Source of the DNA: an uncultured Acidiferrobacteraceae bacterium
GTDB lineage: Bacteria > Pseudomonadota > Gammaproteobacteria > Acidiferrobacterales > SZUA-150
Assembly (NCBI GenBank): GCA_913009895.1
Contig: CAJVXY010000009.1
Span: 1-64,000 of the forward strand
Reading direction: 5' to 3'
DNA: 64,000 bases
Part shown: piece after piece, positions 52,664 through 63,021 of the stretch
Numbering within the stretch: position 1 is the stretch's first letter
Layout of the letters: each line of letters opens with the position of its first letter
Notes under the pieces: model-generated
Told to the model about the DNA's origin: nothing
The model's input: the letters and a program-made list of their open reading frames with translations, nothing else
Databases searched by the model: none
Translations under genes and position numbers: made by a program

Positions 52664-53299
52664 CTAAAAAATCTCGACATCGCTCTCTTTGTGGGACTTT
52701 TCCTGTTCTTCCATTAATTTCACTACCTCTTCAATACTTGCTCCCTCTAGCACCGCGTCAAACATTTTTACTTCATCAGATAATGAATACTGTGAACGTA
52801 TTTTTTCTTGCAGTCCTTTCCATTCATAAGGTGAATACAGACGAACTGGGTCTGATACAAGAGAAGCCAAAGCAGACATGCTGCGACTTATATGGGCCAG
52901 GCGTTGAACCAGCTTGTCGTAAAATTGAAATGCAACAATAACACTATGCATTTTCATGCTGACATCATTACAGTTTCCCAGTACACCATCCTTTATTACA
53001 TCGTCGACATCAGAATTTTCCCACACCTGTTCAAGCGCGCTTCTGATGGCAGCAACATGGCCTGCCATATTTGTAAATGAATTGGTAAGGGTATTCACAG
53101 AATCATCCCCATCGCGCATGCAATACTCTATACGTGCCGTAGCCAGGTTTAACATCAGGATGGTTTCCCTGACCTGACTCCAGTCCAGATCAGGCTCACT
53201 GGATGTAGATTTGGGACTAACACCAACGGCAGATGGTTTCATTTTTTTCCCTGGAAAAGTAATAATAGAGTCCCATTGCTGGGGTTTTTTATCCTGCAA
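52664..53299 (-). CDS. CheZ-like chemotaxis phosphatase
   Basis: 211 residues. A helical middle (RETILMLNLATARIEYCMRDGDDSVNTL) precedes FQFYDKLVQRLAHI, where D128 and Q132 match the D-x3-Q catalytic spacing of CheZ (E. coli D143/Q147), which dephosphorylates CheY-P. The C-terminus, DVEIF, resembles that of the receptor gene in the facing operon (NVELF). Identification is from these features and position; full-length similarity to CheZ is weak. Divergent from the chemosensory operon across a 297-bp region that must hold both promoters. Confidence 0.65.
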   Translation of the reverse strand: MQDKKPQQWDSIITFPGKKMKPSAVGVSPKSTSSEPDLDWSQVRETILMLNLATARIEYCMRDGDDSVNTLTNSFTNMAGHVAAIRSALEQVWENSDVDDVIKDGVLGNCNDVSMKMHSVIVAFQFYDKLVQRLAHISRSMSALASLVSDPVRLYSPYEWKGLQEKIRSQYSLSDEVKMFDAVLEGASIEEVVKLMEEQEKSHKESDVEIF

Positions 53300-53596
53300 T
53301 TACATTAAAAAAATAGTCCAGACAATGACTGTTGTCAATCCACGGCGCGGTATTCACAATTCGAGCCCGCCATGATCCGACAAATGTCATGAAGCGACAT
53401 GTAACGTATGTTTTGGCCTTATTATGTTGTTTTTAATAACTATTTTTATCCCTGACCGTACCGTGACAATTGCGTAATTATTGCTATGTTTAAGTCAGGA
53501 TCGCTAAAAACCTCGACGACTCACCGAGATTTTTTCACCCAAATATAGTTCGTAACTAGCTGTTTATATTAAAGTTATTAGACAGGCATTAAGATT
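53300..53596. other. Divergent control region of the chemosensory genes
   Basis: 297 bases, no gene. AT-rich, especially at 53560-53590 before the STAS gene. No convincing sigma-28 or sigma-54 promoter was found by eye. Confidence 0.4.
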
Positions 53597-53908
53597 ATGG
53601 CTTTACTCAAATTACAACACAAGAATGGTGCAACACTTATTAACCTGGGTGAGCACCTGGACGTAAATTGTGCCAACGAACTTTATGCTGATTTGGGCAT
53701 GGCCCTGAAACGAAAACCGAACAAGATTATTTTTTATGCTGAAAAACTTGTTCGCATTGATACGGCGGCACTGCAATTGCTCATAGCCTGTACTCGCGAA
53801 GCTATACGTCTGAAAAAAACAGTCAGTTGGGCTGAAACCAGTGAAGAATTTCGTGAATGTATTGAATATGCCGGCATGGATGAAGTGCTTGGTTTCCATG
53901 ACACCTAA
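53597..53908 (+). CDS. STAS-domain protein
   Basis: 103 residues with the STAS fold of anti-sigma-factor antagonists: INLGEHLDVNCANELYADL, then IIFYAEKLVRIDTAALQLLIA. The phosphorylatable residue is Thr (IDTAALQLL) where Ser is usual. First gene of the chemosensory operon, 25 bp before the receptor. It may sense or buffer signalling by a phosphoswitch, or bind the receptor array. Confidence 0.85.
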   Translation: MALLKLQHKNGATLINLGEHLDVNCANELYADLGMALKRKPNKIIFYAEKLVRIDTAALQLLIACTREAIRLKKTVSWAETSEEFRECIEYAGMDEVLGFHDT

Positions 53909-53933
53909 CCAGCAGTTACCTTAAGGGATTATT

Positions 53934-55277
53934 TTGAATTCAAACACATCAAAAAATAAAATATTCTGGCTCCTGGTCACACTATTCATTGCGGGTTCAT
54001 GGCTTTTAACTGTCTCCTTTGTTTCGGTCTGGGTGGCAGTCAGTAGCGGACTTAGCGCTGCAATTGCCATGGTCTTGATTCTGGATTTTTCCAGGAAACA
54101 AGATAATTTCGATGAATTTCAGGACGCCTCGCTTGACGAAAAGACGTCTCCCATTGATGCCATTGATGAGCAATTAAGGTCTGCAATTGAACCTGCCAAA
54201 AATGATATTAACCAGCTTCCAAAAATTGATGACCTTCTAACAACCATGGCAGGTGTAAGCGAAAGACGCCGCATTGACGGACTGATAAGAAAATGGGCAG
54301 AACTTGCCAAACAATTTGACGCTGTTAAACACCATCTGGAGGCGAAAATCAGTGAAGTGATTGCGCAAAGTGAAAAAGCCACAGATACGATTGCCAGTAG
54401 CTTCAAAACAGTCATCAACAAGGCTACTTTGCAGGCAAGCCAGGCCATGAACCTACTGGAAGGAACACAGGGCGCCACCAGTGATGGTTCGCCACAGTCG
54501 CTACAGGATTTTATTCGCGTGTCCGATGTACGTCTGAACAAGATGGCGGATGAAGTGATAAGAGTTGCCGACCTGTCAGTAAAAATGGTCAGGGACCTGG
54601 ATGACGTAAAAGACCGAACACAGGCTATTGACGGATTCATGCTGGATGTGGGAAAACTGGCTGATCAGACCAGCTTGCTGGCACTAAATGCGGATATTGA
54701 GGCTTCCCGCGCCGGCGAAGCTGGACGTGGTTTTGGGATTGTTGCCCAGGAGGTAAGGCGCCTCAGTAAACGCTCCAATGTATTCAGTCATGAAATACGC
54801 AACCATCTCAGAATGGTAAAAAATGGCCTTAATGCAACCTACAGCAATATGCAGACACTGACATCCAAAGACATGGCCCATGCGAATAATATCAAGAATG
54901 ACATTATGATGCTTACAAAAACACTGGAAGATAAAAATCGTGAGGTTGCCGAGACAGTGAGCGACATTAATAACATAAGCAAAGAAATTGCCCAGGATGT
55001 ACAGAATGTAGTTATCTCGCTTCAATTTCACGACATCATTTCCCAAAAGCTGAATAGTATTACTACACCTATGGACAACCTTGCTACTGAATTCGATTTA
55101 CTTACCAATGAAACCAATAACCTGGGCCTTACCAGCAACTGGAATAAAGACTTGCCTATGCAAAACCAGCAAAAGATATCTGCTACAAACGGGAAAGCTC
55201 TGCCAAGCATCAATAATGACGCCGTTAGCAAAGATAATTCGGTACCCGATAGCGGCCCAAACGTGGAACTATTTTAA
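53934..55277 (+). CDS. Methyl-accepting chemotaxis protein-like receptor
   Basis: 447 residues. Two adjacent N-terminal membrane segments (about 11-50) with almost no periplasmic part, so it likely senses internally. The coiled-coil hairpin tip [25 protein letters not shown]...VRRLSKRS (243-281) contacts CheA/CheW. C-terminally, LQFHDIISQ (D367, Q371) has the CheZ-like D-x3-Q pattern, and the tail ends NVELF, comparable to the NWETF tether for CheR/CheB. Start TTG 53934 after AAGGGA. Confidence 0.88.
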
Positions 55278-55288
55278 AGGAGATTTAA

Positions 55289-55651
55289 ATGGCAACTATT
55301 CTTATAGTAGATGATACCGCTTCGATGAGACAAATGATTGGTTTTACGCTTAATGACGCTAGTTATGAAGTGACTGAAGCAGCCGATGGTAATGAAGCGC
55401 TTGAAGCTGCACGCAAATCAAAATTTGATGCAGTAATTACAGATATCAATATGCCCAATATGGATGGCATTGCCCTGGTGCGTGAATTACGCTCATTAGC
55501 AGAATATAAATTTACGCCCATACTCATGTTAACGACAGAATCACAGGATTCAAAAAGAAAGGAAAGCAAGGAAGCTGGCGCTACAGGCTGGATTGTGAAA
55601 CCCTTCAATCCAGAGCAGCTATTAAACGTTATTAAAAATGTTCTAAATTAA
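55289..55651 (+). CDS. cheY: Chemotaxis response regulator CheY
   Basis: 120 residues, a lone receiver domain. Acidic pocket in ILIVDDTASM, phosphoacceptor Asp in VITDINMPNMDG, Thr in LMLTTES and Lys in IVKPFNPE. Phosphorylated by CheA. A very good ribosome site, AAAGGAGA, lies 5 bases before the ATG. Second position after the receptor is typical. Confidence 0.95.
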   Translation: MATILIVDDTASMRQMIGFTLNDASYEVTEAADGNEALEAARKSKFDAVITDINMPNMDGIALVRELRSLAEYKFTPILMLTTESQDSKRKESKEAGATGWIVKPFNPEQLLNVIKNVLN

Positions 55652-55655
55652 TTTA

Positions 55656-57704
55656 ATGGTTATTGATCTCACACAATTTCATCAGACTTTTTTTGAAGAA
55701 AGTCTTGAAGCATTGTCTGATATGGAAGCCGAACTACTTCGTCTTGACAGCCAAATGTCCGGGCGAAGATTTTCTGATGAGTTTAAAGCAAATAACGAAT
55801 CTCTAAATATTATTTTCCGGGCTGTCCATTCAATTAAGGGCGGAAGTAGTACTTTTGGTTTTGAAGTTGTTGCCAACTTCAGTCATGTTCTTGAAAACCT
55901 GCTTGATGATATTCGAGAAAACCGTTGTAAAACAACACGAGATCTCATTAGCATTTTACTGCAATCATGTGATTGCCTGCGAACTTTAGTTCAGAATGCA
56001 CAAAACGGGATCAACACTCTACCCACCGATATAAATGATTTTCAAATTAAACTGGAAAAATTACGGGGTACAAATTGCGCTGTTCCGCTGGACAGAAGGA
56101 AAAATATAAGGTCGATCGATAATTTTAATGACAGCAAGACTGGCTGGAATATTTCGTTTACGCCAAACAGGGACATGTTATCTACTGGTAATGATCCGGT
56201 TCGGATTATTCGTGCGTTGACACAACTTGGTAAAATCAGGTCAATATTAAATATAAATTCCTTGCCGAGCTGGAAAAATATAAATCCGGAAGATATTTAT
56301 TTATCATGGGATATTGATTTTTTTGAACCAATCAAGAAAAGTATGTTAGAAAATGTTTTTTCATGGGTGGAAGATGATTGTGTTTTAAATATTATACAAA
56401 AAAAAGATCCTCAAAAATCGTCAACTTCTAAATCCGGGCAATACATTGACACGAATGCTGATACTATGGTTCCTGCCCCAGGCGCTTCAGGTAACGGCCT
56501 CGAAGTTCAGTCGATCCGCGTTAGCACACCGAAAGTAGATGCCCTGGTTGACCTGGTGGGCGAACTTGTAATAACCCAGACAATGCTTAGTCAATTCTCT
56601 GAAGAAATAACGCCTGAATCAATTGAAAAGTTACAGCTTGGTCTGAGCCTGTTAGAAAGAAATACACGAGAATTGCAGGAAAGTGTTATGAGAATTCGAA
56701 TGTTGCCGGTGGGTTTCGCCCTGAATAAACTTCCCAGAATTGTTCGCGATGTCAGTCAAAAGCTTGGTAAAAATGTGAAACTTGATATAAGCGGGGAAGG
56801 CACAGAGCTCGATAAAAGCGTTATTGAAAGCATAGGCGATGCACTGATGCATATTGTTCGCAATTCGGTTGATCACGGTCTTGAGTCGCCCGCCGAAAGA
56901 ATTAAAGCCGGTAAACCTGAAACTGGCACGATTCACGTACAAGCCTCTCAAAAAGGCGGCAGTGTCGTGATCACTATAGAAGACGATGGCAGTGGCCTGA
57001 AACGAGATTTAATCTTGAAAAAAGCTACAGAAAAAGGCCTGGTCGCGGAAGATGCAAATTTAACCGACGAACAAATCGATAATCTCATTTTTATACCAGG
57101 TTTTTCCACGGCCTCCCAGGTGACGGGCGTATCTGGCAGAGGTGTAGGCATGGATGTGGTAAGAACTCGCATCAGTGAATTGAGCGGTAATGTAGAAGTT
57201 ACAAGCAAACCTGGAACAGGAACTAAATTAACATTACGTCTACCGCTGACTCTCGCAATTATGGATGGGCTTTGCGTCAAGGTTGGTTCGCAGGTTTACA
57301 TCATTCCCCTCTTGTCTGTAATTGAATCCCTATCAGTTCCGGAGCAGGAAATTAGCAGGCCTGCTGGCGGCTCTGAGCTGGTTCCTTTTCATGGCGAATA
57401 CTTACCGTTCCTGAAACTCCACGAATTATTCAAATTAAACACGGCAGTCAAAAACACTTCTGACGGAATTATCATCATCGTGGAAGCTGAAAGCAAAAAA
57501 ATTGGCCTGTTAGTGGATGAAATTGTGGGTCAACAACAAGTGGTCGTGAAAAGCCTTGAGACACATTATAAACGTGTTGAAGGTGTGGCCACTGCAACCA
57601 TTCTAGGCGACGGAGAAGTGGCATTAATACTGGATATATCCACCCTTACAAACCTTGTAAATCACAAACACCATCAGGGTCATACGCTTAAAGAGGCATC
57701 CTGA
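55656..57704 (+). CDS. cheA: Chemotaxis histidine kinase CheA
   Basis: 682 residues. HPt domain with phospho-His58 in AVHSIKGGSSTFGF. A mid domain (about 160-255, WNISFTPNRDM...RALTQLG) forms a P2-like segment. Dimerisation follows, then the ATPase with RNSVDHGLE (N box), DDGSGL (G1) and SGRGVGMDVV (G2), and a C-terminal CheW-like domain. It transfers phosphate to CheY and CheB. Starts 4 bp after cheY. Confidence 0.97.
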   Translation: MVIDLTQFHQTFFEESLEALSDMEAELLRLDSQMSGRRFSDEFKANNESLNIIFRAVHSIKGGSSTFGFEVVANFSHVLENLLDDIRENRCKTTRDLISILLQSCDCLRTLVQNAQNGINTLPTDINDFQIKLEKLRGTNCAVPLDRRKNIRSIDNFNDSKTGWNISFTPNRDMLSTGNDPVRIIRALTQLGKIRSILNINSLPSWKNINPEDIYLSWDIDFFEPIKKSMLENVFSWVEDDCVLNIIQKKDPQKSSTSKSGQYIDTNADTMVPAPGASGNGLEVQSIRVSTPKVDALVDLVGELVITQTMLSQFSEEITPESIEKLQLGLSLLERNTRELQESVMRIRMLPVGFALNKLPRIVRDVSQKLGKNVKLDISGEGTELDKSVIESIGDALMHIVRNSVDHGLESPAERIKAGKPETGTIHVQASQKGGSVVITIEDDGSGLKRDLILKKATEKGLVAEDANLTDEQIDNLIFIPGFSTASQVTGVSGRGVGMDVVRTRISELSGNVEVTSKPGTGTKLTLRLPLTLAIMDGLCVKVGSQVYIIPLLSVIESLSVPEQEISRPAGGSELVPFHGEYLPFLKLHELFKLNTAVKNTSDGIIIIVEAESKKIGLLVDEIVGQQQVVVKSLETHYKRVEGVATATILGDGEVALILDISTLTNLVNHKHHQGHTLKEAS

Positions 57705-57747
57705 TGTTTTTTAAACTTAATTACATTTGTTATTTCGGAGTACAATA

Positions 57748-58269
57748 ATGGATAACACGAATCTGGCAGACATCAAAGAAGACCTGGATAATCTTGAGCA
57801 ACAGTATCTGACCTTCAGACTGAGTGATCAGGATTATGGTATACCCATTCTCGAAGTTCAGGAGATAAAAGGATGGACTGCGGTCACGCCAATCCCCAAC
57901 TCTCCCCATTTTATAAAAGGTGTCTTGAATCTGCGCGGCACCATCGTGCCCATTATAGATTTAAGACTACGCTTTAATCTTGAAAGAAAGGAATACGACC
58001 AATTTACAGTAATCATAGTTGTTAATATTGCCGGCAAGCTTGCTGGCCTGGTTGTTGATTCTGTTAGCGATGTTGTGAATGCATCCAATGAGCAGCATTG
58101 TGAAGCACCAGAATTTGAGGGGCAGCTTAACAGGCAATTTATTGAGGGTCTGGTCCAGTTTGATGAAAAACTCCTCATACTGCTGGATATCAGCAAACTT
58201 GCAGATATCGATGATCTGACCGACGTAAGTGCTGATCAAGACCCCGGTACAGTGCCTGAAGAGAATTAG
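57748..58269 (+). CDS. cheW: Chemotaxis coupling protein CheW
   Basis: 173 residues from ATG 57748 with CGGAG before it; a TTG at 57727 is an unlikely alternative. One CheW fold (YLTFRLSDQDYGIPILEVQEI ... GVLNLRGTIVPIIDLRLRF ... GLVVDSVSDV). It couples the receptor to CheA. The acidic C-terminal tail (about 15 residues) is longer than in E. coli CheW. Confidence 0.96.
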   Translation: MDNTNLADIKEDLDNLEQQYLTFRLSDQDYGIPILEVQEIKGWTAVTPIPNSPHFIKGVLNLRGTIVPIIDLRLRFNLERKEYDQFTVIIVVNIAGKLAGLVVDSVSDVVNASNEQHCEAPEFEGQLNRQFIEGLVQFDEKLLILLDISKLADIDDLTDVSADQDPGTVPEEN

Positions 58270-58367
58270 CCATACCTTTTATAAAAGTTGGTAACGCTTG
58301 TACTTCTAACAAGCTACATAGTATTAGCATTACACCATTAAATACTTTGAGTATGGACCATTAAGGT

Positions 58368-59246
58368 ATGACAGCAAATTTACGATCTCCGCTGATACAG
58401 CACGCGGATAACTTAACTGACAAGGAATTCAGGTTATTCAAGGAGCTGATCTATGAGCAGACCGGTATCTCATTATCTGAACATAAACGAGCGCTTGTCT
58501 ATTCCCGCCTTGGAAAAAGGTTGCGATTCCACGGCCTGAAGACTTATCTTGATTACTATAACTATATCTTAAATAATGACACAGCCGGCACAGAGCTGGT
58601 TGAAATGATTAATGCAATTACAACCAATAAGACCAGTTTTTTTCGTGAGGATTTTCATTTCAAGTTTTTAAGCGAAACACTATTTCCAGCCCTGAAGGAA
58701 AATGCTCAAAGTCATGATACCAAAACTATAAATATCTGGAGTGCCGGCTGTTCTACCGGTGAAGAAGCATATACTATCGCTATGGCACTTTCTGAAGCCT
58801 TTCCTGATAATTTTGGCTGGCATATAAAGATACTTGCTACGGACATAGACACCAATGTCCTTAAAAAAGCTTCTGAGGGTATTTATCCCATTGAGAACAC
58901 CTCTCAAATTCCAAATAATCTTTTACTTAAATATTTCCACAAAGGAAGAGGAGAAAACCAAGGATTCTTCAGGGCCTCGGACAAATTAAAAGATTTAATT
59001 ACTTTTCAACAGCTGAACTTACTTGATTCAAAATGGTCTCATCGCCAAAAGTTCGATATTATTTTTTGTCGAAATGTAATTATTTATTTTGACAAGAAAA
59101 CACAACATGATCTAATCCATCGTTTTCAGGATCATCTGGATTTAGATGGATATTTAATGCTTGGTCATTCCGAATCTCTACATGGGCAAGAAACGAACCT
59201 GATCAATCTTGGTAAAAATATTTACCAGGCTAACAAGACAAGCTAA
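58368..59246 (+). CDS. cheR: Chemoreceptor methyltransferase CheR
   Basis: 292 residues. N-terminal CheR helical domain (FRLFKELIYEQTGISLSEHKRALVYSRLGKRLR), then SAM binding in IWSAGCSTGEEAYTIAM and DIIFCRNVIIYFD. It methylates receptor glutamates. A 98-bp gap separates it from cheW, so a second promoter is possible. Confidence 0.96.
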   Translation: MTANLRSPLIQHADNLTDKEFRLFKELIYEQTGISLSEHKRALVYSRLGKRLRFHGLKTYLDYYNYILNNDTAGTELVEMINAITTNKTSFFREDFHFKFLSETLFPALKENAQSHDTKTINIWSAGCSTGEEAYTIAMALSEAFPDNFGWHIKILATDIDTNVLKKASEGIYPIENTSQIPNNLLLKYFHKGRGENQGFFRASDKLKDLITFQQLNLLDSKWSHRQKFDIIFCRNVIIYFDKKTQHDLIHRFQDHLDLDGYLMLGHSESLHGQETNLINLGKNIYQANKTS

Positions 59247-59252
59247 TTTATT

Positions 59253-59858
59253 ATGTTGCAAAACGCTAATTTATCTTCATCTAAACATCGTCGCCTGCCT
59301 AAAGAAGTGGAAGGGCTTCCTCTGGAACGTATAAATATTGGTTGCGTCAAAGTTAGCAAAGATCCTGTTGTTTTTGACACTGTACTGGGCTCGTGTATTT
59401 CCGTGTGCATGTATGATCCTGAATGTAATGCTGGCGGAATGAACCATTTTATGCTGCCAAAAGCTACGGACTTAAATAACCCGTTGAGTACGCGTTATGG
59501 TGTACATGCGATGGAGTTATTAATTAATAATCTCATTAAAATTGGCGGTGTACGTTCTCGTTTTATCGTAAAGGTATTTGGCGGCGGACACGTTCTGGAT
59601 ATCCCTAACTCCAATAACAGTGTACCAAGTATGAATATCAGTTTTGTTGGTAAGTTTCTTGCCACCGAGAAAATAAAAGTTATCACCAGTGACCTTGGTG
59701 GAAAACACCCAAAACGCGTACTATTTTTCCCACATACAGGAAAAGTATATTTAAAACGCCTTGGCGAAAATGAAGCAACTAAAACAATTACCGAAGAAAA
59801 TATTTTCCTATCCAAACTTAGAACAGATGAACTGGACGGAATACCCACCCTCTTCTAG
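59253..59858 (+). CDS. cheD: Chemoreceptor glutamine deamidase CheD
   Basis: 201 residues. Catalytic Cys in TVLGSCISVCMYD and His in GGMNHFMLP, with the follow-on HAMELLINNLIKIGG. It deamidates receptor Gln to Glu and can act with a CheC/CheX phosphatase. 6 bp after cheR, so co-transcribed. Confidence 0.96.
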   Translation: MLQNANLSSSKHRRLPKEVEGLPLERINIGCVKVSKDPVVFDTVLGSCISVCMYDPECNAGGMNHFMLPKATDLNNPLSTRYGVHAMELLINNLIKIGGVRSRFIVKVFGGGHVLDIPNSNNSVPSMNISFVGKFLATEKIKVITSDLGGKHPKRVLFFPHTGKVYLKRLGENEATKTITEENIFLSKLRTDELDGIPTLF

Positions 59859-59880
59859 TAATTTAAACTGGTGAGAATTT

Positions 59881-61005
59881 TTGGCTAAAATAATTAAAGT
59901 CCTGATTATCGATGACTCTGCTGTCATGCGAGAGCTGCTTAAATCTATCATCACAGAAGACCCAAGATTTGAAGTTGTTGGTGTGTCTTCTGATCCTATT
60001 CTTGCTAAAAATAAAATTCCCAGGATTAACCCTGACGTCCTGACCCTGGACGTAGAAATGCCGCGCATGGATGGTCTTACTTTTCTCAAAGAATTAATGG
60101 AAATAAGACCAATGCCTGTTGTCATGGTTTCGTCATACACGGAAAAAGGCGCACGCGAAACTTTCCGGGCACTTGAACTGGGTGCGATTGATTTTATTAC
60201 TAAACCAAAAATGGATGCCAGTGGTTCATTGGATCCATTTATTACAGATCTTTGTAACAAACTGGAAGCTGCTGCCAACGCAAAAATTCGCTCAAGTGTT
60301 AGATTAATAAATAAACAAGATGCTAACGACAGGGGTTCCCTGGACCACCTGGAATCAACTACTGGCCCCAGGAAAGTAAAAATTAATCCGTCATCCAGGT
60401 CCGGGAGCAGAAAAATCATTGTTATTGGTGCGTCTACTGGCGGAACAAAGGCAATTCAGGAAATTGCCGAAGCATTGCCGGTTGACAGCCCGGGGATTGC
60501 TGTCGTCCAGCACATGCCACCACGTTTTACCGGTATGTATGCCCAGAGAATCAACCAGCTATCAGCCCTCGATATCAGGGAAGCGCAAGATGGTGATACT
60601 TTAGCACCCGGTACAATGTTGATAGCCAATGGTGCTTATCATTTAGCTGTTGCACAAAACTCCCGGAATGAATTTATTGTAAACGTCTTTGATGGAGATC
60701 TGATCAATCAACACAAACCGGCAGTTGATATTTTATTTGAATCCGCCAGCCATTATCCAGGCGCAGATATTCTGGGAATTCTCCTTACGGGCATGGGAAA
60801 AGATGGCGCTAAAGGGATGCTTTCAATGTACAGGAATGGCTCCTATACAATTGCCCAGGATAAAAAAAGTTGCGTGATTTATGGTATGCCCGATCAGGCA
60901 AACAAACTTGGTGCTGTCAATAAAATACTATCGATTAGTGATATTCCTTCTTACATAGCTCGCTGGGCCACGGGAAATATTTCCAGCAACAGGGTAGCTT
61001 CATAA
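59881..61005 (+). CDS. cheB: Protein-glutamate methylesterase CheB
   Basis: 374 residues. Receiver domain (VLIIDDSAVMR, phospho-Asp in LTLDVEMPRMDG) and a C-terminal esterase with GASTGGTKAI (Ser), HMPPRFTGMYA (His) and LLTGMGKDGAKGM (Asp). It removes methyl groups from receptors after CheA activation. TTG start at 59881 with GGTGAG upstream. Last gene of the operon; convergent with the GTPase. Confidence 0.96.
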   Translation: MAKIIKVLIIDDSAVMRELLKSIITEDPRFEVVGVSSDPILAKNKIPRINPDVLTLDVEMPRMDGLTFLKELMEIRPMPVVMVSSYTEKGARETFRALELGAIDFITKPKMDASGSLDPFITDLCNKLEAAANAKIRSSVRLINKQDANDRGSLDHLESTTGPRKVKINPSSRSGSRKIIVIGASTGGTKAIQEIAEALPVDSPGIAVVQHMPPRFTGMYAQRINQLSALDIREAQDGDTLAPGTMLIANGAYHLAVAQNSRNEFIVNVFDGDLINQHKPAVDILFESASHYPGADILGILLTGMGKDGAKGMLSMYRNGSYTIAQDKKSCVIYGMPDQANKLGAVNKILSISDIPSYIARWATGNISSNRVAS

Positions 61006-61008
61006 TTT

Positions 61009-63021
61009 TTAAACTATTGGTTTTTGTATTTTCTTAAACAAACCGTTAACTGTCCCAAGCTGAGATGCGATATTAGCTTTTTCCTGCTCAAGGCTTGATA
61101 TTTGCTGACCAATAGTATCAATGTCGTCATGGATTGCGCGAATTGATTCCAGTCCTTTATCGATTATATTTTTATGTACCCTTAACTGGTTATGCACCTG
61201 GCTAGCCAGTTCCTGGAACCATCCCTGGGCGTGCTGGCTACAATCATCATAGATTTTCCTTGCCTCTGAAACCATCACAACAAAAAATTTACTAATAACT
61301 GTATTCTGCTCAGTAACAATAATTGCCGCACTACTCCTGAATACCTCAGCCCTGCCCTCCAGTTTTTTCAGATCCATCACATAAGGCACCAGCGACAAGG
61401 CAGGTACCCGAATCAGGGGAAGCCCATATTCTTTGTGCATTTTCAAACATATTTCATCTACTGATTTTTTAATTCCCTCAGACTTCTCTTTAATATTACC
61501 CATCGGGTTCATGGCAGTTCTAAAGAATTGTCTTATGGCCTTCTTTAAACCAGCCGTTGTCCAGCTCTCTTTCATATTTTTACGTGTCAAACGAATTAGC
61601 TGATCCAGCGCCTTTAAACTCAGGTCATTAAATAGAACACCTGCCTGTTCTGTTAATACTTTTCTCGTTATTTCAAATCCCTTGATTTCCATTTCATATT
61701 TCTTCTTCTCCTTGCGCATCATAGAAACCATTTCCTGGATTTCGTCAAGATTTTTACCGCCAAGTTCTTTTAATTTTTTTAGCTGATTATCTACTCCGTT
61801 ATATTTAGCTTTTAGTAATTGCTGGCTTTTTTCCACCCTGCCACTAACCTCATAAACAACTTTACGGCGTATTATCTCGTATTTAGCAGGTAAAATTTGC
61901 TTGGCCAGACATAATTCAAGATAATTTATTCCACTTTTTTCAAGTAGCTCCCTGTCGTTATTTATTTTTGCTGTCAGGCCAGCCTTGGCCGATACAGGCA
62001 TTATTATTTTTCTGTTTTCCTTTAACGAACGCGCCGTACTTTCAATTTGATTGTTTATTAGTTTTTTAACTTCGGATTCTGTACGTAACGGATCCCACAT
62101 TGCATCAATTTTGTTCAGGACAACCAGGCGTTCATGTAGCTTGTCCTTTTTAGCACTGGTAACATGATTGTTCCATATCTCCATATCACTTACTGTTACA
62201 CCAGTATCCGCCGCCAATACAAAAACTACGGCATGAGCTTCTGGTAACATACTTAACGTAAGTTCAGGCTCAGAACCCAGGGCATTTAGTCCTGGTGTAT
62301 CCAGAATCACAAGGCCTTTTTCCAATAAAGGATGGGAGTAATTAATAATTGCGTGACGCCAGCAGGGTATCTCAATCATGTCATCAACAATCGAAACCCC
62401 CCTGTTGGCTATCTCATTATTTGGATCATACAAACCAAGCTCTTCGGCTTCCCGGGTATGCACCCTCTTGGTTTTGGTGACCTCCAAAAAAGCAGCTTCA
62501 AGTTCCTCGCCAGAATCTCGCTTAAGCAGGTGTAAAGTTGTCCACTGCACCGGATTCTGCTTGTACTCGGCAATGGTTGTATCCGTCTTACGCGTTTCGA
62601 TAGGCAACAATTTTATACAGGACCCGGTTTTAACGTCATAACGAAGCTCAGTCGGACACATGGTTGTCCGCCCTGCTGATGAGGGTAATAAACGCTTTTT
62701 ATAGTCAGAGAAAAATAAGGCATTAAGCAGTTCTGTTTTGCCACGGGAGAACTCTCCCATGAAAGCAATTTTTAACTTGTCAGATTTTAACGCCTCAATC
62801 AGCTCATAAATTCGCAGGTCGTTTGCGCCCTCAGCCGGCTCATTCTGCTCAACCCACTCCTGATACGCCTCAATCGCAGCTACAAACTGCTCACGCCAAA
62901 TGCTGAAACTGGCAAGTTTCTGCGTAAACCCTTCAGCCTGGGTGAGCATTGGCTTTTTCACAGCACTCGATTTGCGCCGACCGGGGGCAGGACTGCCTTT
63001 TGATATGCTTATATTTGCCAC
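61009..63021 (-). CDS. Dynamin-family GTPase
   Basis: 670 residues. G1 GEFSRGKTELLN (about 91-102), G3 LDTPGLNALG, G4 VLNKIDAM. Long C-terminal helices and a coiled coil (REKKKYEMEIKGFE; LEQEKANIASQLG) follow. An extended basic N-terminal tail occurs before the G domain. Bacterial dynamin-like proteins remodel membranes. No transmembrane segment is evident, so membrane contact would be through a paddle-like helix. Shares no operon with cheB; transcribed toward it. Confidence 0.88.
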   Translation of the reverse strand: MANISISKGSPAPGRRKSSAVKKPMLTQAEGFTQKLASFSIWREQFVAAIEAYQEWVEQNEPAEGANDLRIYELIEALKSDKLKIAFMGEFSRGKTELLNALFFSDYKKRLLPSSAGRTTMCPTELRYDVKTGSCIKLLPIETRKTDTTIAEYKQNPVQWTTLHLLKRDSGEELEAAFLEVTKTKRVHTREAEELGLYDPNNEIANRGVSIVDDMIEIPCWRHAIINYSHPLLEKGLVILDTPGLNALGSEPELTLSMLPEAHAVVFVLAADTGVTVSDMEIWNNHVTSAKKDKLHERLVVLNKIDAMWDPLRTESEVKKLINNQIESTARSLKENRKIIMPVSAKAGLTAKINNDRELLEKSGINYLELCLAKQILPAKYEIIRRKVVYEVSGRVEKSQQLLKAKYNGVDNQLKKLKELGGKNLDEIQEMVSMMRKEKKKYEMEIKGFEITRKVLTEQAGVLFNDLSLKALDQLIRLTRKNMKESWTTAGLKKAIRQFFRTAMNPMGNIKEKSEGIKKSVDEICLKMHKEYGLPLIRVPALSLVPYVMDLKKLEGRAEVFRSSAAIIVTEQNTVISKFFVVMVSEARKIYDDCSQHAQGWFQELASQVHNQLRVHKNIIDKGLESIRAIHDDIDTIGQQISSLEQEKANIASQLGTVNGLFKKIQKPIV

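Follow-up and report, generated by a model that had tools for sequence, protein, structure and literature searches.

A conserved C-terminal tail of McpA-like chemoreceptors travels with a CheZ-type element, [AS]xxFxDxxxQ, an association that is new. The window analyzed here is a 64,000-nucleotide stretch of DNA from an uncultured Acidiferrobacteraceae bacterium, and in it a 211-aa CheZ-like protein and a 447-aa receptor carry both the motif and the tail, as the original prediction had described (Table 1). Our preferred reading, to which we assign a probability of roughly 55%, is that motif and tail together constitute a CheY-P phosphatase module that occurs either free or fused to an MCP hairpin and whose tail would dock CheY.

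Table 1. Features of the window that bear on the motif and tail.
Feature	Coordinates	Strand	Basis
CheZ-like protein, 211 aa, TTG start	52664..53299	-	homology; no Pfam or NCBIfam match above cut-off
FYDKLVQ, residues 126-132 of the 211-aa protein, D128/Q132	52904..52924	-	read from translation; invariant in 19-sequence alignment A3
DVEIF C-terminus of the 211-aa protein, residues 207-211	52667..52681	-	read from translation
STAS-domain protein, anti-sigma-factor-antagonist type, operon gene one	53597..53908	+	PF13466, E = 3e-7
Short membrane-anchored McpA-like chemoreceptor, 447 aa	53934..55277	+	PF00015, relatives, predicted fold
MCP signalling domain, receptor residues 217-362	54582..55019	+	PF00015
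FHDIISQ, receptor residues 365-371, D367/Q371	55026..55046	+	invariant in alignments A1 and A2
NVELF C-terminus of the receptor, residues 443-447	55260..55274	+	read from translation
CheY, presumed substrate, 11 nt 3' of the receptor gene	55289..55651	+	Pfam; neighbourhood
CheA	55656..57704	+	Pfam
CheW	57727..58269	+	Pfam
CheR	58368..59246	+	Pfam
CheD, terminating in IPTLF; most relatives terminate in G(E/D)(V/I)(E/D)LF	59253..59858	+	Pfam, translation
CheB	59881..61005	+	Pfam

The AlphaFold model of the receptor (pLDDT 75) contains helices at residues 6-24 and 29-62, followed by a helical hairpin and a disordered tail, and we take the two predicted N-terminal helices to be membrane anchors. 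The MCP signalling domain is matched by PF00015 with E 6e-26 (91.7 bits against a cut-off of 34.6), the MCP tip residues are invariant in receptor alignment A2, and chemoreceptors in the PDB are the top fold matches of the model. A search of the receptor for the strict methylation-site consensus, returned none, a result of low weight given that functional receptors can deviate. Numbering of the 211-aa protein depends on its TTG start; an in-frame ATG at residue 20, where close homologues begin (L025, 192 aa), would give D109/Q113. Its AlphaFold model is poor (pLDDT 63), with low-confidence helices at residues 40-93 and 100-148, and the matches listed for that model in a fold search are generic helical hairpins alone, CheZ 1kmi not being among them, an absence that carries no weight in either direction. 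A PDB sequence search with alignment A3 likewise returned no CheZ, its matches being mostly coiled-coil or helical proteins.

The receptor gene is the second in an operon ordered STAS, receptor, cheY, cheA, cheW, cheR, cheD, and cheB (53597-61005), from which the gene for the 211-aa protein diverges. Convergent with cheB lies a gene for a dynamin-family GTPase (61009-63021, minus strand; PF00350, E 4e-17). The assembly to which the window belongs comprises 2.85 Mb at 90.5% completeness and 4.45% contamination. No match to FliM was found in it, and the output of this che pathway is therefore probably not flagellar, the assembly being incomplete. The sole match to canonical CheZ (Pfam PF04344) in the same assembly lies at another place with E 0.38. 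CheW-domain matches occur in the window cluster, in a near-copy on contig C12, and at a third locus with an 1822-aa open frame. The C12 copy duplicates the entire che cluster, its CheZ-like protein being 91% and its receptor 89% identical to those of the window, and could be either paralogous or derived from a second strain binned with the first. Elsewhere, the CheZ-like protein usually occurs alongside canonical CheZ (13 of the 16 genomes up to handle G142), which suggests that proteins of the 211-aa type target a different CheY than canonical CheZ does.

We examined the association of motif and tail from both directions. A degenerate DNA search of 10 genomes for the tail followed by a stop, run without assuming the association, gave 29 places. 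In 21 of them the tail closes an ORF of 150 aa or longer, and the other 8 are tiny frames or non-stops. These 21 ORFs encode eight motif-bearing short MCPs, four CheZ-like proteins, five CheD proteins, three GGDEF cyclases (two assigned by Pfam, the third by likeness), and one MCP with a HAMP domain assigned by Pfam. Searching the same genomes for (L/F)QFxDxxxQ gave 37 places, 30 of them with the locus examined; the tail is present in 15/15 ORFs with this pattern that are MCPs (11) or CheZ-like (4) and in 0/15 elsewhere. Across 80 loci from named genomes, the tail terminates 60/62 motif receptors, 26/27 CheD proteins, 4/4 CheZ-like proteins, and 0/704 other ORFs, counted over ORFs that are complete, do not overlap, and reach 150 aa, a filter that dropped 18 of the 80 receptors. 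Chance as the cause of the pairing is ruled out by these tail, motif, and named-locus counts together with the relatives found by similarity. The HAMP-containing MCP among the 21 (L174 in genome G034) lacks the D-x3-Q motif and ends in GDIELF at the usual position of the pentapeptide.

Relatives of the receptor were collected by a similarity search that did not require the motif, which gave a match in 35 of 369 genomes of the class. An MCP ORF was recovered at 29/30 of the resulting loci, the window's own included; D-x3-Q, in the form Q(F/Y)xDxxxQ, is kept in 29/29 of these receptors and the (V/I)(D/E)LF end in 28/29, the exception being ITFF. The Asp and Gln are unchanging throughout this set, whereas most neighbouring helix positions vary. 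Orthologues at the level of the order have both the motif and VELF in 11/11 complete cases, with one further sequence (L123) cut by its contig, and the only invariant columns of the 18-row alignment A5 are an earlier Asp, the motif Q..D...Q, and the final Leu-Phe. For the CheZ-like protein, relatives occur in 21/185 genomes of the class, and among the 20 of 24 places fetched F-x-D-x3-Q is kept in 20/20 and the exact tail in 18/20 (L038 and L044 lack it). Both tails are thus conserved in homologues, one of the points on which the original prediction had staked itself. Two receptors (L076 and L081) retain the old tail as GDIDLF and then continue into an extension that terminates in a second tail, ESVELF, so that the end position behaves as if under selection.

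The 80 named-genome receptor loci, which include Methylotuvimicrobium, Thiomicrorhabdus, Stenotrophomonas, Luteibacter, Lysobacter, and Magnetococcales, came from a scan whose pattern required the motif. Its invariance there and in alignment A6 is consequently built in and is not evidence, and the tails alone count: 78/80 receptors end in (V/I)(D/E)(L/I)F, the others in IEMF and AELF. In other families of the phylum, we also observed apparently soluble relatives of the receptor (L333-L360, four of which were read through) that keep the motif and tail; by reading, their MCP tip is LNARIVxAR instead of LNAAIEAAR, with the tip Glu-Ala altered, and the membrane helices have been lost. The named loci from Magnetococcales resemble these in length and ending.

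Profile comparison (hhalign) aligned the receptor C-terminal region with the CheZ-like family with P 96.5 and E 8e-10, the motif being in register, and the match persisted at E 5e-6 after the motif columns were deleted. A control profile of 32 MCP C-halves lacking the motif reached E 0.015 against the same family, which rules out general MCP or coiled-coil similarity as the source of the match. The relationship to canonical CheZ is more distant. A CheZ profile built from 19 sequences, 44-53% identical to the first, matched the receptor C-terminus weakly in the right register (E 0.003-0.005); a receptor-based search matched PDB CheZ 1kmi weakly in register (E 1.4); and the 211-aa family gave no in-register alignment with canonical CheZ (E 0.08). 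Pfam CheZ also gave sub-threshold matches, reaching E 3e-6 at most, to ORFs roughly 400 aa long; one such match (in genome G011) overlaps a place matched by the receptor. Canonical CheZ (PF04344) is accordingly not supported as the family of the 211-aa protein, which has neither a Pfam match nor an in-register alignment. The motif [AS]xxFxDxxxQ nevertheless agrees with the published CheZ composite AxxFQ-DxxxQ (PMC7750401) at A/S, F, D, and Q, the difference being a Gln at D-3 here instead of D-1. Given the weak profile match and this agreement, we describe the module as one that probably works like CheZ and do not file it as CheZ.

Weakness of the CheZ match would also fit an explanation in which the Asp and Gln are structural, setting how helices pack both at the base of the receptor bundle and within the CheZ-like hairpin, and the tail recruits a shared partner with no catalysis, the proteins serving as scaffolds or CheY-P sinks. 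That CheD, GGDEF proteins, and one MCP have the tail and lack the motif points the same way. We nonetheless regard this explanation as rather unlikely, because the two residues are unvarying in the 29 relatives found by similarity while the helix around them changes, and because the motif coincides with the CheZ composite (PMC7750401) at four positions.

The catalytic reading gains from stand-alone versions of the receptor's C-terminal region. A profile of that region found a match in 96 of 299 genomes of the phylum, and the 30 loci returned by this search have the motif and tail in 30/30. Nine weaker matches in short ORFs, when fetched, proved to be stand-alone proteins of 148-191 aa that have the motif and lack the MCP tip. 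The long tail seen in the receptor is present in 7/9 of them (for example, NPVTQSEMDAGSVELF), and in 7/7 loci of these seven proteins cheY lies 30-139 nt downstream on the same strand. The receptor gene is itself directly upstream of cheY in 11/11 relatives, with gaps of -38 to 16 nt, and the same position upstream of cheY is therefore taken by a stand-alone protein elsewhere and by the receptor in this window and its relatives. Against the receptor C-terminus, the seven stand-alone proteins score P 98.9 and E 3e-17 over both motif and tail, with the long tail PVxQxxMxxGxVELF inside the matched stretch, and they match the CheZ-like family profile with E 2e-8. They showed no match to the profile of MCPs without the motif, and those tested against the family databases had no significant Pfam match, no NCBIfam match above cut-off, and no CheZ match at E<=1. 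The other two of the nine, short QFQDxxxQ proteins near che genes (L369:978-1508 and L370:3-539) with tails EVDLF and DITLF, may have branched off further from the rest of the module.

As a statement about anatomy, the suggestion of a CheY phosphatase-like element built into the receptor thus has good support: every relative found by similarity keeps the motif, it agrees with the CheZ pattern, and proteins with the same tail stand alone beside cheY.

A second proposal, that NVELF could replace the NWETF tether, fared less well. The two sequences have the N, E, and F positions in common, the operon includes cheR, cheB, and cheD, and binding to CheR has been reported for CheT of Sinorhizobium meliloti, itself a DXXXQ phosphatase (PMC12654446), so that a variant CheR/CheB tether is at least conceivable. 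Both NVELF and DVEIF, however, have Val at position 2 and miss the tether consensus x-[HFYW]-x(2)-[HFYW] (PMC7184735), which calls for an aromatic residue there. In Pseudomonas aeruginosa McpA (CttP), Val at this position prevents interaction with any of the four CheR proteins (PMC7184735, citing Garcia-Fontana 2014), and the pentapeptide was present in 0/39 other McpA-like sequences (PMC7184735). Within the window's own assembly, three other MCPs end in GWSLF, DWEDF, and DWEDF, and one ends in KQAS; aromatic tethers and VELF tails therefore coexist in one assembly as distinct endings. It is not obvious what the CheZ-like, CheD, and GGDEF proteins would gain from tethering CheR, the reported binding of CheR by CheT notwithstanding. 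Considering the coexisting aromatic endings, the lack of a strict methylation consensus in the receptor, and the literature, we rejected the tether and regard it as very improbable.

That both proteins bind the same partner through their tails, the remaining claim of the original prediction, is plausible and is better supported now that CheD and a GGDEF protein are found to carry the tail as well. Among CheD proteins at 30 loci, 22 have the exact end, six have the tail 1-6 residues inside, one ends in AELF, and one in TLF. The placement of ELF 1-6 residues before the end indicates that a free carboxylate is not always needed. In the window's own assembly, a GGDEF diguanylate cyclase (L164:481-1518, contig C1 near 98582; relatives L177 and L166) ends in GDIELF and may be an output of the che pathway.

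A tail borne by proteins of such differing activities, the GGDEF protein included, could also be a localisation or array-docking signal for a hub common to CheD, the CheZ-like protein, the receptor, and the cyclase, and unrelated to CheY. The clustering of Shewanella oneidensis McpA at the pole with CheA3 (PMC9855816) would be in keeping with such a signal. We judge it improbable, since a transmembrane receptor already within the array should not need a docking signal, the stand-alone forms adjoin cheY, and the tail ends none of the 155 CheA, CheB, CheR, CheW, and CheY ORFs at the named loci.

We therefore return to the phosphatase module, whose mechanism we outline by analogy. For CheZ, Zhao 2002 and Guhaniyogi 2006 are reported to have shown that CheY-P is gripped by the C-terminal peptide, while a helix supplies the Asp/Gln pair needed to complete the site of hydrolysis. 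The module proposed here would comprise a helix with [AS]-x-x-F-x-D-x-x-x-Q, a flexible stretch, and a docking peptide (D/E/G)-(V/I)-(D/E)-L-F. Its free soluble forms would be the 211-aa protein and, in other genomes, the proteins of 148-191 aa encoded ahead of cheY, and its fused form the end of the short membrane-anchored MCP hairpin in the window receptor and McpA-like receptors. The tail would capture CheY-P much as the CheZ peptide does, and the Asp/Gln pair would then enter the CheY active site and bring about hydrolysis; a receptor-borne module could in this way terminate the signal within the CheA/CheW array. Against this mechanism, the window CheY, aligned by eye, has Asn at the position equivalent to E. 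coli Lys26, the partner of the CheZ Asp. If the module docks CheY, then CheD and the diguanylate cyclase of the same assembly, which have the docking tail without the motif, would be recruited by CheY-P. The sequences establish that motif and tail are present, conserved, and paired, that the modules are related, and that they are syntenic with cheY; that the module is catalytic, that its tail binds CheY, and what the tail does in CheD and the cyclase are all proposed from sequence, and our searches found no published biochemistry for any member of the module. More tentatively, and at well short of even odds, -(V/I)(E/D)LF could be a pathway-wide CheY-P docking code used by the phosphatase, whether free or built into a receptor, by CheD, and, in this apparently non-flagellar lineage, by the cyclase. 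Output, adaptation, and termination would then all be wired through a single short peptide, with McpA-type proteins acting as receptor-phosphatases that switch off CheY-P inside the array.

Early-stage F7 systems are reported to be the ancestors of the E. coli pathway (PMC7184735). In stages 1-2, cheZ occurs in F6 systems only and the F7 clusters are without it, and McpA-like receptors are said to have a strikingly conserved C-terminus whose role is termed "important yet unclear" (PMC7184735). If our reading is true, the module would answer both F7 puzzles, that of the missing cheZ and that of the conserved tail. As far as we found, no chemoreceptor before the window receptor has been proposed to act directly on CheY-P, and the sequences suggest that some chemoreceptors carry their own off-switch. 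In the open-licence literature, we found no paper that connects receptors of the McpA type with either a CheZ motif or dephosphorylation of CheY, which is not proof of absence.

Among known systems, the window receptor belongs to, or lies very close to, the McpA-like receptors (PA0180, VCA1088, and SO_2117), an identification that rests on gene order, architecture, and tail. Like them (PMC7184735 and PMC7534058), it has a transmembrane region, is encoded in a che cluster together with cheD, lacks the CheR pentapeptide, and has a conserved C-terminus in which Val replaces the aromatic residue at pentapeptide position 2. It differs in lying upstream of cheY in the operon, not after cheB, and in coming from a genome without a FliM match. 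Ortega 2020 places the McpA-like receptor of stage-1 F7 systems after cheB (PMC7184735), which is the position of the named receptors that follow cheB as their nearest che gene, within 600 nt (48/80), in clusters that include cheA, cheW, an MCP ending WxxF, cheR, and cheD. The accessible portions of PMC7184735 and PMC7534058 mention no CheZ-type motif in these receptors. In S. oneidensis, overproduction of McpA raises swimming, as does that of three other MCPs, and deletion of mcpA has no swimming effect (PMC9855816); McpA has so far no phenotype of its own there, which counts against the phosphatase reading.

CheD (PF03975) resembles the module in its G(E/D)(V/I)(E/D)LF ending, found in most gammaproteobacterial CheD proteins examined, and differs in being a known receptor-modifying enzyme. 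CheT of S. meliloti and Agrobacterium, which we compared by description only, is likewise CheZ-like with a DXXXQ motif, is reported to be a CheY phosphatase, and is described as without significant homology to known chemotaxis proteins (PMC12654446); it differs in being alphaproteobacterial and in its reported binding of CheR (PMC12654446). Another parallel is CheZ, in which a C-terminal CheY-binding region is marked (PMC7750401). Both have Asp-x3-Gln preceded by Phe at -2 and by a small residue at -5. In the low-confidence model of the 211-aa protein the motif falls on helix two of the hairpin, as in CheZ, and an acidic C-terminal peptide ending in Phe is a candidate counterpart of the CheY-binding peptide. 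The tail sequence is unlike the VDDLLSSLGF of canonical CheZ, the 211-aa protein has no PF04344 match, and the receptor version is fused to an MCP hairpin. What these comparisons describe is a CheZ-like module that is either free or receptor-borne and has its tail in common with CheD.
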